Source of the DNA: Paracoccus sp. SMMA_5_TC | GTDB taxonomy: Bacteria; Pseudomonadota; Alphaproteobacteria; Rhodobacterales; Rhodobacteraceae | Assembly (NCBI RefSeq): GCF_009696685.2 | Contig: NZ_CP102355.1 | Span: 1,723,501 to 1,787,500, forward strand | Reading direction: 5' to 3' | Length of the DNA: 64,000 nt | The notes under the pieces: model-generated | Told to the model about the DNA's origin: nothing | What the model saw: the letters and a program-made list of their open reading frames with translations, nothing else | The model's database searches: none | Shown: one piece after another, positions 33,475 to 38,629 of the stretch | Layout: the number at the start of each line of letters is the position of its first letter | How positions within the stretch are numbered: position 1 is the first letter of the stretch | Program-made: the position numbers and the translations under genes

Positions 33475-34110
33475 ATGAAAGACGCATATTCGCTGATCCT
33501 GTCCGCCATCGACAACGGCATCTATCGCCCCGGCGACCGTCTGGTCGAATCCGAACTGGCCGAACGTTTCGGCGTTTCGCGCACCCCCGTGCGCGAGGCG
33601 CTGCAACGGCTGGAAACCCAGTCGATGCTCAAGCGCGACGGTCGCAGCCTGATCGTGGCCACCCTGGATCACAACCAGCTGGCCGAGCTTTACACCGTGC
33701 GCGCCGAGCTCGAGGCGCTGGCCGCGCGCCTGGCCGCCCTGCACGCGACGCCCGAAGAGGTGCGGGTGCTGGCGGGCATGGTTGCGGACGACCGCGCCAT
33801 GCTGGGCGATCCGCAGGCGCTGGCGCGCGCCAATCGCCGCTTTCACCATCAGATCCACCTGGCGTCGCACAACAGATATCTTGTGCAACAGCTTGATCTT
33901 GTTCATCGCAGCATGGCGCTTATGGCGCGCACGACCCTGGCTGCCAAGGGGCGTGACGCGGTCACCCTGGACGAACATCAGGCGATTGTTGATGCGATTG
34001 CTGCGCGCGATGGCGCCGCGGCCGAACAGGCACTGCGTCATCACATCTCGATGGCGTTTGAGACGCGGCTCAAGGAAGAAGCCCGGATCGCCGACGAAAG
34101 CCAACGCTGA
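33475..34110 (+). CDS. GntR-family transcriptional regulator (FadR/FCD type)
   Basis: A 211-aa regulator. Winged HTH at residues about 5-70 (GIYRPGDRLVESELAERFGV, SRTPVREALQRLE), then an all-helical FCD domain with RAELEALAARLAALHA and FHHQIHLASHNRYL, whose Asp/His residues usually bind a metal and a carboxylate effector. ATG at 33475 is chosen; another in-frame ATG at 33409 would overlap the divergent HAD start. Ends TGATG into alkA, so the two are coupled. Target genes not evident. Confidence 0.87.
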   Translation: MKDAYSLILSAIDNGIYRPGDRLVESELAERFGVSRTPVREALQRLETQSMLKRDGRSLIVATLDHNQLAELYTVRAELEALAARLAALHATPEEVRVLAGMVADDRAMLGDPQALARANRRFHHQIHLASHNRYLVQQLDLVHRSMALMARTTLAAKGRDAVTLDEHQAIVDAIAARDGAAAEQALRHHISMAFETRLKEEARIADESQR

Positions 34111-34733
34111 TGAGACTGATCGTCACCCCGCAGGACATCGAGCAAGGGGCGGCGCATCTGATCGAGGTCTGTCCCGTCTGGGCGCGCGAACTGCCAGCGC
34201 TGATGCCCTTGCCGTTGCGACGCTGGCAACCTGGTTTTGCTGCCCTGCGCGATGCCGTGATCTCGCAACAGATTTCGGTGCAGGCGGCGGCTGCGATCTT
34301 GTCGCGGCTGACCGCGGCCGGGCTGGATACCGAGGAGGGGCTTGTGGCCGCAGACGACGATGCCTTGCGCGCCGCCGGTCTGTCGCGTCCCAAACAGCGC
34401 TATCTTCGGGCAATAGCGGCCGCCGGAGTGGACTGGCAGGGGCTGGAGCGGCTGCCTGACGACGAGGTTGTCGCTCAGCTGACCGCGCTTCCCGGGATCG
34501 GGCGCTGGACTGCGGAAATTTATCTGAAATTCGCGCTGGGTCGCGCAGATGCCTTTGCTGCGGGCGATCTGGCGCTGGCCGAGGCCGCGCGGTTGCTTTA
34601 CGGCCTGCCGCATCGGCCGGACCCGACGGAACTGACGGCGCTGGCCGAGCCCTGGCGACCCTGGCGTGCCGTTGCGGCGCGGGCGCTGTGGGCCTATTAC
34701 CGGGTGGCAAAAGGGCGCGAGGGCGTCCGCTAA
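34110..34733 (+). CDS. alkA: DNA-3-methyladenine glycosylase II (AlkA-like)
   Basis: A 207-aa HhH-GPD base-excision glycosylase. The helix-hairpin-helix LTALPGIGRWTAEIYLKFAL is followed by AFAAGDLALAEAARLLYG with the catalytic aspartate. It lacks the N-terminal domain of E. coli AlkA and is closer to the short bacterial form. It removes alkylated purines. Overlaps the GntR gene by one base; whether the regulator controls it is unknown. Confidence 0.9.
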   Translation: MRLIVTPQDIEQGAAHLIEVCPVWARELPALMPLPLRRWQPGFAALRDAVISQQISVQAAAAILSRLTAAGLDTEEGLVAADDDALRAAGLSRPKQRYLRAIAAAGVDWQGLERLPDDEVVAQLTALPGIGRWTAEIYLKFALGRADAFAAGDLALAEAARLLYGLPHRPDPTELTALAEPWRPWRAVAARALWAYYRVAKGREGVR

Positions 34734-36534: not shown

Positions 36535-36580
36535 CACAGTCAGCCCGATGCGGGCGACGACAAGACGGGGCGACCGGCCT

Positions 36581-37177
36581 ATGCTTGACGAACACGGCGA
36601 TTTCAGAACCCAATTCGTGCGCGAGCCCTCGGCCCTGCGCCATCACCCGGCCTTGGTGCTGAACGCTGATTTTCGCCCGCTGAGCTATTTCCCGCTGTCG
36701 CTTTGGCCCTGGCAAGAGGCGATCAAGGCGGTGTTCCTGGAGCGGGTGCAGATCATCGCCGAATACGACGAAAGGGTGCACAGTCAAAGGCACAGCATGC
36801 GCATCCCTTCGGTCGTGGTGCTGAAGGATTACGTAAAACCCCAGAAGCGCGTGGCCTTCACGCGCTTCAATCTTTTTCTGCGGGACGAATTCTGCTGCCA
36901 GTATTGCGGCGCCCGTGGCGACCTGACCTTCGATCACGTGGTGCCGCGATCGCGTGGCGGGGTGACCAGCTGGGAAAACGTGGTCGCAGCCTGTTCGCCC
37001 TGCAACCTGAAAAAGGCCAACAAGTCGCTGCGCGCCTCTGGCATGCATCTGCGCAGATCCCCTCGACGCCCCACACCCGCCGAGATGCACGCTGTCGGCC
37101 GGCGCTTTCCCCCCAACTATCTGCACGAAAGCTGGATGGATTTCCTGTATTGGGACACCGAGCTGAGCGCCGACTGA
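36581..37177 (+). CDS. HNH endonuclease family protein
   Basis: A 198-aa protein common in alphaproteobacteria. The HNH domain is at about residues 105-150: CCQYCGARGDLTFDHVVPRS, with the DH pair, then SWENVVAACSPCNLKKANKS. Two CxxC pairs (CQYC, CSPC) should bind a structural zinc. The N-terminal 90 residues (LVLNADFRPLSYFPLSLWPW) are the conserved leader of this chromosomal HNH group, not of phage HNH proteins. Not next to any methylase, so a restriction role is not suggested; function unknown. Confidence 0.88.
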   Translation: MLDEHGDFRTQFVREPSALRHHPALVLNADFRPLSYFPLSLWPWQEAIKAVFLERVQIIAEYDERVHSQRHSMRIPSVVVLKDYVKPQKRVAFTRFNLFLRDEFCCQYCGARGDLTFDHVVPRSRGGVTSWENVVAACSPCNLKKANKSLRASGMHLRRSPRRPTPAEMHAVGRRFPPNYLHESWMDFLYWDTELSAD

Positions 37178-37519
37178 CGGGCCAGCATGTCGCGGTGGGC
37201 AAGGCAATCCCCCTGCCTTGGCGTGGGTGGATAGCCCGTGTTTCATGGACGATTGCGGGGCGGTCACCCTGGCAGGCGCGGCCTGCCACATCTGGCTACG
37301 GCGATGAGTCCGCGCAAGCGACCCGACCTGCCTGAAGAACCAGGGTTTACCGGCGCCAACTGCGGCCTGCGCACAGACCGCGAGCAGACCACGGCGGCGG
37401 ACAGATGCGGTTGCTTCCGGTCCGGCAAGTTCACGAGGAACATGGGCAAGGCGTCGCGTCTGTGCTGACGCCGATGCACAGATCGATGGGGCGGTTATCG
37501 GCGGCGTCGGCTTTCAAAT
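37178..37519. other. Gene-free stretch before the radical SAM gene
   Basis: About 340 bp with no supported gene. It holds a short hairpin (caaggca / tgccttg near 37200-37220) after the HNH stop that may end transcription. Short open frames exist, but none has a ribosome site or recognisable product. Confidence 0.5.
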
Positions 37520-37534
37520 GTTCATGTAATGTTC
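37520..37534 (+). promoter_or_regulatory. Putative LexA/SOS box (GTTC-N7-GTTC)
   Basis: GTTC-atgtaat-GTTC, the exact alphaproteobacterial LexA direct repeat, ending 12 nt before the ATG of the radical SAM gene. A LexA dimer here would block transcription or initiation. Clear -35/-10 elements are not obvious. Confidence 0.68.
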
Positions 37535-37546
37535 TAAGCTGTCCGC

Positions 37547-38629
37547 ATGACCGACCTGCATCGCGACCCCGACGAAATTCTGCGCGCGCGTGGCGCCGAT
37601 TCGCGACCGGCAGCCCGGTTCGAGCCGCTGACCCGCGCGCGCGAGTCTGACGGCTGGGACATGGTCGAGGACGGCCGTCTTGTGCAGACCGAGATCGCCC
37701 GCGAACAGGCGCGCTCGATCATCAGTCGCAACGATTCCCCCGACATCCCATTCGACCGTTCCGTCAATCCCTATCGCGGCTGCGAGCACGGTTGCATCTA
37801 TTGCTTTGCCCGTCCCAGCCACGCCTATCTGGGCCTGTCGCCGGGGCTGGATTTTGAAACCCGTATCATCGCCAAGCCGAATGCGGCAGAGCTGCTGGCG
37901 CGCGAAATCGGCCGGCGCGGCTATGCGGTCGCGCCCATCGCCTTCGGCACCAATACCGACCCCTATCAACCGGCGGAATCGCGGCTGGGCATCATGCGCG
38001 CCTGTCTTGAGGTGCTGCGCGACTGGAACCATCCGCTGAGCCTTGTGACCCGTGGCGCCACCGTCATGCGTGATGTCGATATCCTCGGCCAGATGGCGGC
38101 GCGCTCGCAGGTGACCGTGGGCATCTCGATCACCACGCTGGACAGCGATCTTGCCCGCGCAATGGAGCCGCGCGCCCCGACCCCCGCGACACGGCTGCGC
38201 ATGATCGCCGTGTTGGCCCGGGCGGGCGTGCCGGTGCGGGTGATGGTCGCGCCGATGATCCCGGTGCTGACGGCCCATGAACTTGAACGGATCATGCAGG
38301 CGGCTGCCGATGCCGGCGCCCGCAGCGCCAGCATGATCCCCCTGCGCCTGCCGCTGGAGGTAGCGCCGCTGTTTCGGGACTGGCTGGAACGCCATCACCC
38401 CGGCAAGGCTGCGCATGTGATGGCACAGATCCAGGCAATTCGCGGCGGCCGCGACAACGATCCCCGCTTCGGCAGCCGGATGCGGGGCGAGGGGCCGCAT
38501 GCAGACCTGCTGCATCAGCGCTTTCGCCTGGCGCGTCGGCGTCTGGGGCTCGACGCCCCGGCCGAGGTGCTGGATTGCAGCCGCTTTGGCCCGCCGCCGC
38601 GGAGCGGCGACCAGCTGTCGCTATTCTGA
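37547..38629 (+). CDS. PA0069-family radical SAM protein (SplB-like) with clamp-binding tail
   Basis: A 360-aa protein. The radical SAM cluster motif is YRGCEHGCIYCFARPSH with Cys79, Cys83 and Cys86; the barrel continues with IAFGTNTDPYQPAESRLGIM and VTRGATVMRDVDIL. It belongs to the COG1533 group with spore photoproduct lyase, annotated as DNA repair photolyase-like, but its reaction is unknown. The last five residues are QLSLF, an exact match to the consensus bacterial beta-clamp-binding pentapeptide. With a LexA box in front, an SOS-induced, replisome-linked repair role is inferred. The 3' end overlaps the convergent methyltransferase gene by 9 bp. Confidence 0.9.
   Translation: MTDLHRDPDEILRARGADSRPAARFEPLTRARESDGWDMVEDGRLVQTEIAREQARSIISRNDSPDIPFDRSVNPYRGCEHGCIYCFARPSHAYLGLSPGLDFETRIIAKPNAAELLAREIGRRGYAVAPIAFGTNTDPYQPAESRLGIMRACLEVLRDWNHPLSLVTRGATVMRDVDILGQMAARSQVTVGISITTLDSDLARAMEPRAPTPATRLRMIAVLARAGVPVRVMVAPMIPVLTAHELERIMQAAADAGARSASMIPLRLPLEVAPLFRDWLERHHPGKAAHVMAQIQAIRGGRDNDPRFGSRMRGEGPHADLLHQRFRLARRRLGLDAPAEVLDCSRFGPPPRSGDQLSLF

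Follow-up and report, generated by a model that had tools for sequence, protein, structure and literature searches.

The 64,000-nt stretch of the Paracoccus sp. SMMA_5_TC genome analysed here (contig NZ_CP102355.1, positions 1,723,501 to 1,787,500; the window) carries an open reading frame for a PA0069-family radical S-adenosylmethionine (SAM) protein, which occupies positions 37547–38629 including the stop codon and encodes 360 amino acids ending in GDQLSLF. The gene, its promoter elements and its motifs all lie on the plus strand. A LexA operator, GTTCATGTAATGTTC, is located at 37520–37534, and 12 nt (37535–37546) separate its end from the ATG at 37547. Both features pointed out in the initial annotation, an exact GTTC-N7-GTTC box ending 12 nt before the ATG and the pentapeptide QLSLF at the extreme C-terminus, are therefore present as described.

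The protein scored 483.2 bits with the NCBIfam model NF033668 (PA0069 family radical SAM; cut-off 360), which it matched over model positions 1–348 of 348, 248.8 bits with NF038135 (Rv2578c family) and 60.2 bits with PF04055. In NCBIfam, NF033668 has the status of a hypothetical equivalog, and no reaction is given for it. Among named organisms, Paracoccus provides the closest relatives of the protein. The gene was present in 125 of the 149 sampled genomes of the order, all of which represent one family, and members of the protein family scored above the cut-off in 111 of 299 sampled genomes of the phylum. In an alignment of 66 members, drawn at random from the readable orthologues with a few rows thinned by hand, the three cysteines of the [4Fe-4S]/SAM motif C79-EHG-C83-IY-C86 (37781–37804) were invariant in 66/66 rows, as were T137, D138 and Q141 within the GTNTDPYQ motif (residues 134–141; 37946–37969).

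Alignment of 110 Rhodobacterales promoters on the box gave the consensus cTTGCa.ATGTTCtt.tTtTGTTCTAtttT ahead of the start codon. The first in-frame ATG was found 12 nt past the box in 58 of these promoters and 11–13 nt past it in 85. A plain sigma-70 scan of the window promoter alone gave no match. The column consensus sequences TTGCAn and TAtttT correspond to a putative −35 element TTTCAA (37512–37517) and a putative −10 element TAAGCT (37535–37540), respectively. Judging from this consensus, the two elements would be separated by 17 bp (37518–37534), a spacer almost wholly taken up by the operator. Transcription would then start at or beside the A of the ATG, and the mRNA is therefore probably leaderless.

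The bare GTTC-N7-GTTC pattern, taken alone, is weak evidence of LexA binding, because it occurs 106 times in the whole 3.12-Mb genome against 68 times for the reversed control. Within the window, five occurrences were observed versus 0.96 expected, a number reached in 0 of 100 shuffles. What raises GTTCATGTAATGTTC above chance is its composition, the presence of like boxes at lexA, recA and uvrA, and its conservation at the equivalent position in orthologues. Its AT-rich centre and TGTTC end fit the composition of the 162 boxes that precede alphaproteobacterial orthologues. The single LexA gene of the genome has GTTCCTTGAATGTTC 34 nt upstream of its matched region, the RecA gene has GTTCACTGGTTGTTC 108 nt upstream of its own, and the UvrA gene, the identity of which was confirmed, has GTTCGCCGGATGTTC upstream. 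The box preceding the radical SAM gene belongs to the same type as these three.

The box was conserved among the Rhodobacterales orthologues, as the initial annotation had proposed to check, and outside the order as well. All 125 Rhodobacterales loci were read, and the exact alpha-type box was found upstream, in either orientation, in 119 of them. Four of the remaining six had a box with one mismatch, one locus was cut by the contig end (L068, with 91 nt of upstream sequence) and one had no box. From the phylum sample, 40 of 60 other alphaproteobacterial genomes and 35 of 39 beta/gamma genomes above the cut-off were read, beta/gamma denoting here genomes from the same phylum and another class. 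The exact box preceded 37 of the 40 other alphaproteobacterial orthologues and the other three had one mismatch; 30 of these 40 are the best-scoring ones and many are near relatives, so that they do not count as independent. The four control patterns for the alpha box matched at 1/124 Rhodobacterales and 11/40 other alphaproteobacterial loci; four of the latter matches arose from the letters of the box itself, six from GACA repeats that occupy the same position in a group of six related loci, and one was at L043. The box GTTCTTGCTTTGTTC with the tail QLSLL at the orthologue on pSymB of Sinorhizobium meliloti and the box GTTCCTTATTTGTTC with the tail QLELF at the Rhodobacterales locus L155 are single examples.

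Of the 35 orthologues from the phylum's other classes, none had the exact alpha box and seven had it with one mismatch. Their upstream regions carried CTGT-N8-ACAG in 25 of 35 cases, with 0 of 35 for the mirrored control; at locus L188 the box reads CTGTATTTTTATACAG. This pattern is the beta/gamma type of LexA operator. Among the best 80 of 592 actinobacterial loci of the Rv2578c family, GAAC-N4-GTTC was exact in 52, while four control patterns gave 0/80; a version with one mismatch lay at the same place in 20 further loci and elsewhere in three, and five had none. A site that is kept while the operator sequence changes between clades is very strong evidence of LexA control, and on these sequences the radical SAM gene is almost certainly under LexA control.

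The pentapeptide QLSLF (residues 356–360; 38612–38626) is of the clamp-binding type. Q356 was invariant in 66/66 aligned members and L359 was present in at least 90% of them. Counted over the last 20 residues, and with the expectation taken from shuffling each tail, the strict motif Q[LM]xL[FL] was found in 112 of 124 Rhodobacterales proteins (1.2 expected), a strongly positive outcome of the check proposed in the initial annotation, as well as in 34 of 38 from other alphaproteobacteria (0.4), 13 of 35 beta/gamma (0.2) and 9 of 80 actinobacterial proteins (0.1). The looser Qxx[LMFI][FLIW] was matched by 121, 37, 34 and 48 proteins of the same four sets (12.2, 3.8, 3.3 and 1.9 expected). L191 and L197 were left out of the tail counts, as the fetched stretch ends before the stop codon, and L155 entered the box counts only, so that the Rhodobacterales denominators are 124 for tails and 125 for boxes. 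On these counts, a clamp-type tail is a conserved feature of a whole phylum, and Actinobacteria have it in a weakened form. The tail was absent from nine remoter relatives (Bacteroidota, Bacillota, Cyanobacteria and a haloarchaeon), one of which, L310, has the near miss EQLGF at its end, and a relative from Gemmatimonadota ends in SAQLSLGI.

QL[S/D]LF is the clamp-binding consensus given in PMC3716654. To judge by its letters and position, the tail has the appearance of a short clamp-binding peptide, and it very probably binds the beta clamp (DnaN). We weighed against this the explanation that the tail is conserved for packing on the enzyme itself or for docking another partner, in which case the SOS link would stand and recruitment by DnaN would fall. 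The distance from the protein core (F347) to the motif glutamine is nearly fixed in Rhodobacterales (9 residues in 116 tails), which makes self-packing possible there, and 73 of the 80 actinobacterial tails end in [LMFI][LF] even though the glutamine is often lost. Outside Rhodobacterales, however, both the length and the letters of the linker vary, and up to ten residues may follow the motif. Moreover, only 5 of 197 proteobacterial tails missed the loose motif, and four of these read QLSLAL, QLSLGL, QMALDL and QMGLDF, which resemble the clamp motif in its hexapeptide form. A pentapeptide of the same type is also found near the end of this genome's DinB-type polymerase, the C-terminus of which is QLGLFDQA. 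In the structure model, the mean predicted local distance difference test score (pLDDT) drops to 73 for residues 351–360 from 95 for the ten residues before; DSSP assigned a short helical turn to 357–359. In our judgement, packing on the enzyme or docking of another partner is the unlikely explanation.

The fold search with the predicted structure returned spore photoproduct lyase (SPL; 4FHC and relatives) as the nearest solved fold, with a lead of about 4 Z units over the family that came next. Like SPL, the protein has the CxxxCxxC motif (C79, C83 and C86, in 66/66) and a tyrosine preceding the third cysteine. Among the sequence searches, a phmmer run of the protein by itself had no PDB hit at E ≤ 1, a narrow family profile matched SkfB (top) and NifB but not SPL at E ≤ 10, and a wider profile placed SkfB first (E 4.4e-6) and SPL next (E 6.6e-6). 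The SkfB matches, together with the peptide maturases SkfB and SuiB and the RNA enzymes RlmN, MiaB and TYW1 among the other structural neighbours, speak for an SOS-induced enzyme that modifies a non-DNA target, namely a protein, a peptide or RNA at the fork, as does the description of the DNA-repair link as speculative in a Streptomyces study (PMC12924846). The margin of the SPL fold over the next family argues against such a target, and LexA control and the tail place the enzyme with DNA repair. We consider a non-DNA target quite unlikely, and the substrate is likely to be a DNA lesion.

The likeness to SplB claimed in the initial annotation holds for the predicted fold but not for the catalytic residues. 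The hydrogen donor of SPL is a cysteine, C141 in Bs and C140 in Gt (PMC3742179). No equivalent of this fourth cysteine was found in the family alignment, where beyond the cluster motif cysteine reached at most 23/66 in any column. The position of the relay tyrosine Y99 (Bs), which directly follows the third cluster cysteine, is phenylalanine in 51 of the 66 members, including the window protein, and tyrosine in 15. The NCBIfam model of SPL, TIGR04070, gave only 10.6 bits against a cut-off of 400. The missing hydrogen donor and the phenylalanine in place of the relay tyrosine make a true SPL improbable. The window protein is probably not one, and strict SPL activity, that is, repair of 5-thyminyl-5,6-dihydrothymine in vegetative cells, was rejected as the likely function; we give it very little credence. 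That box and tail coincide in one gene by chance, for which the mild genomic enrichment of the bare box pattern (106 vs 68) might be adduced, was rejected as next to impossible, both elements being conserved across orthologues.

The reading we favour, and hold to be rather likely, is that the gene encodes an SOS-induced, clamp-tethered radical SAM enzyme of the SPL fold which acts on a possibly replication-blocking lesion. LexA bound to the operator that fills the −35/−10 spacer would block RNA polymerase. Upon DNA damage, RecA would trigger LexA cleavage, and a probably leaderless mRNA would be made. The product would be a radical SAM enzyme of the SPL fold that holds a single [4Fe-4S] cluster and whose QLSLF end would dock in the peptide pocket of DnaN and thereby hold the enzyme on DNA at or behind the fork. 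There, the 5'-deoxyadenosyl radical would serve to undo or remodel a lesion in the DNA, most likely a replication-blocking one of the intrastrand or crosslink type, by chemistry that would differ from that of SPL at the hydrogen-return step. As far as sequences can tell, the combination of SOS control and clamp recruitment is well supported.

Several observations weigh against this interpretation. The strict pentapeptide is restricted to 13 of the 35 beta/gamma tails, and in 32 of the 80 actinobacterial tails not even the loose motif is present, in most cases because the glutamine has been lost. The nearly constant core-to-glutamine spacing in Rhodobacterales has been mentioned. Ten of the 35 beta/gamma orthologues have the tail and no CTGT-N8-ACAG within one mismatch; these may use another LexA operator or none. 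Finally, a Streptomyces protein of the Rv2578c family differed from SplB by a root-mean-square deviation of more than 4 Å, and the link to repair was called speculative by its authors (PMC12924846). The ten beta/gamma loci which keep the tail and lack the operator pattern are L158, L160, L162, L166, L168, L169, L176, L180, L181 and L190.

A search of the genome at the DNA level for Q-[L/F]-x-L-F-stop yielded five matches (three for the reversed control). Three of the five end in a real stop codon: the radical SAM gene, a gene for Cas2 and a doubtful, short open reading frame. The Cas2 protein (TIGR01573, 59.9 bits; G000:C1:2179388-2179735, plus strand) ends in QLALF. Of 390 genomes sampled from the order, 29 yielded a relative, and without exception these 29 proteins terminate in QL-x-[LM]-F (L219, L319–L347); every match extends to the last residue of the query, and the gene in G529 is split across two frames. 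The Cas2 end resembles another conserved tail of the clamp type, through which, if true, spacer uptake would be linked to the replication clamp. The literature search found no paper on Cas2 and clamp binding.

Some further features of the surroundings and of distant relatives were recorded. The 3.5 kb upstream of the radical SAM gene include genes for an HhH-GPD (AlkA-like) DNA glycosylase and an HNH endonuclease (34110–34733, 36548–37177). Phage relatives of the protein are remote: there are nine records, and in one of them the match spans 80% or more of the query, at 25.9% identity. Two remote radical SAM relatives, the cyanobacterial L312 on a Nostoc plasmid and the haloarchaeal L316 on a Natronosalvus plasmid, are encoded next to or near the three-Cys-motif partner protein TcmP.

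PA0069 itself may be a member of the LexA regulon of Pseudomonas aeruginosa; the literature search gave no confirmation. SOS control of splB-like genes, for its part, has precedents in several papers. LexA control of splB was predicted in 2012 for alpha- and beta-Proteobacteria, also from LexA-type sites and by the same reasoning from a change of operator (PMC3323433); the splB of that study and the window gene would belong to the same or a closely related family. Beside that prediction stands an Aeromonas caviae record found here, with the box CTGTATATATAAACAG and the tail QLRLF. SplB has also been placed within Bacteroidetes LexA networks (PMC8565304), the core SOS regulon of Gram-positive bacteria includes a radical SAM protein (PMC7739468), and the LexA table of S. 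venezuelae lists a radical SAM gene, possibly of another family (PMC9380542). Operons that combine SplB-like genes with ImuB-C domains have been described as well (PMC3765255). In mycobacteria, a gene annotated as 'DNA repair photolyase', which would correspond to Rv2578c, shows RecA-dependent induction by mitomycin C (PMC8151990). In the text of the Dinoroseobacter LexA paper, the gene tables of which were not searched, the words photolyase and radical SAM are absent. The LexA half of the proposal has thus already been published as a prediction.

The clamp half appears new: no report of a clamp motif on the bacterial PA0069 family was found among the matches listed from the open-licence literature searched, which is no proof of absence. 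Translesion polymerases such as DinB carry the same type of pentapeptide near the C-terminus, whereas here the carrier is a radical SAM enzyme (compare PMC3716654). The nearest parallel comes from Archaea, where splB-like genes adjoin nreB, the PCNA motif of NreA is required for mitomycin C repair, in which it acts together with UvrABC, and SplB-like enzymes have been speculated to repair intra- or interstrand crosslinks (PMC4929162, a review). There too, a SplB-like enzyme is linked to the sliding clamp and, via NreA, to mitomycin C repair. In Archaea, however, it is NreA that bears the PCNA motif and accounts for the repair phenotype, and the motif of NreB is less clear; the parts of the review consulted describe no clamp motif on the archaeal SplB-like protein, whereas the bacterial proteins carry one themselves. 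The sister family Rv2578c (NF038135) has LexA-type sites and a C-terminal LF tail in common with the window protein, but its tail glutamine is often lost and its pre-tail region cannot be aligned by the NF033668 and NF038135 models. A broader and tentative view, which we regard as possible though rather doubtful, is that PA0069 and Rv2578c proteins together form a clamp-tethered SOS system for direct reversal in Proteobacteria and Actinobacteria, in which an enzyme of the SPL fold would undo a replication-blocking lesion of the intrastrand or crosslink type, with a hydrogen-return step that dispenses with the SPL cysteine, and which would be the bacterial counterpart of the archaeal SplB-like/Nre/PCNA link.

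Radical SAM DNA repair outside spores has been raised earlier for bacteria and archaea, without a demonstration in the passages at hand of the papers concerned (PMC3323433, PMC4929162). For the PA0069 family, the conserved clamp tail indicates the likely site of action, and the missing SPL residues mean that repair of the spore photoproduct alone would be the wrong assay. If the enzyme does reverse a lesion at the fork, it would represent a radical SAM DNA-repair reaction outside spores.
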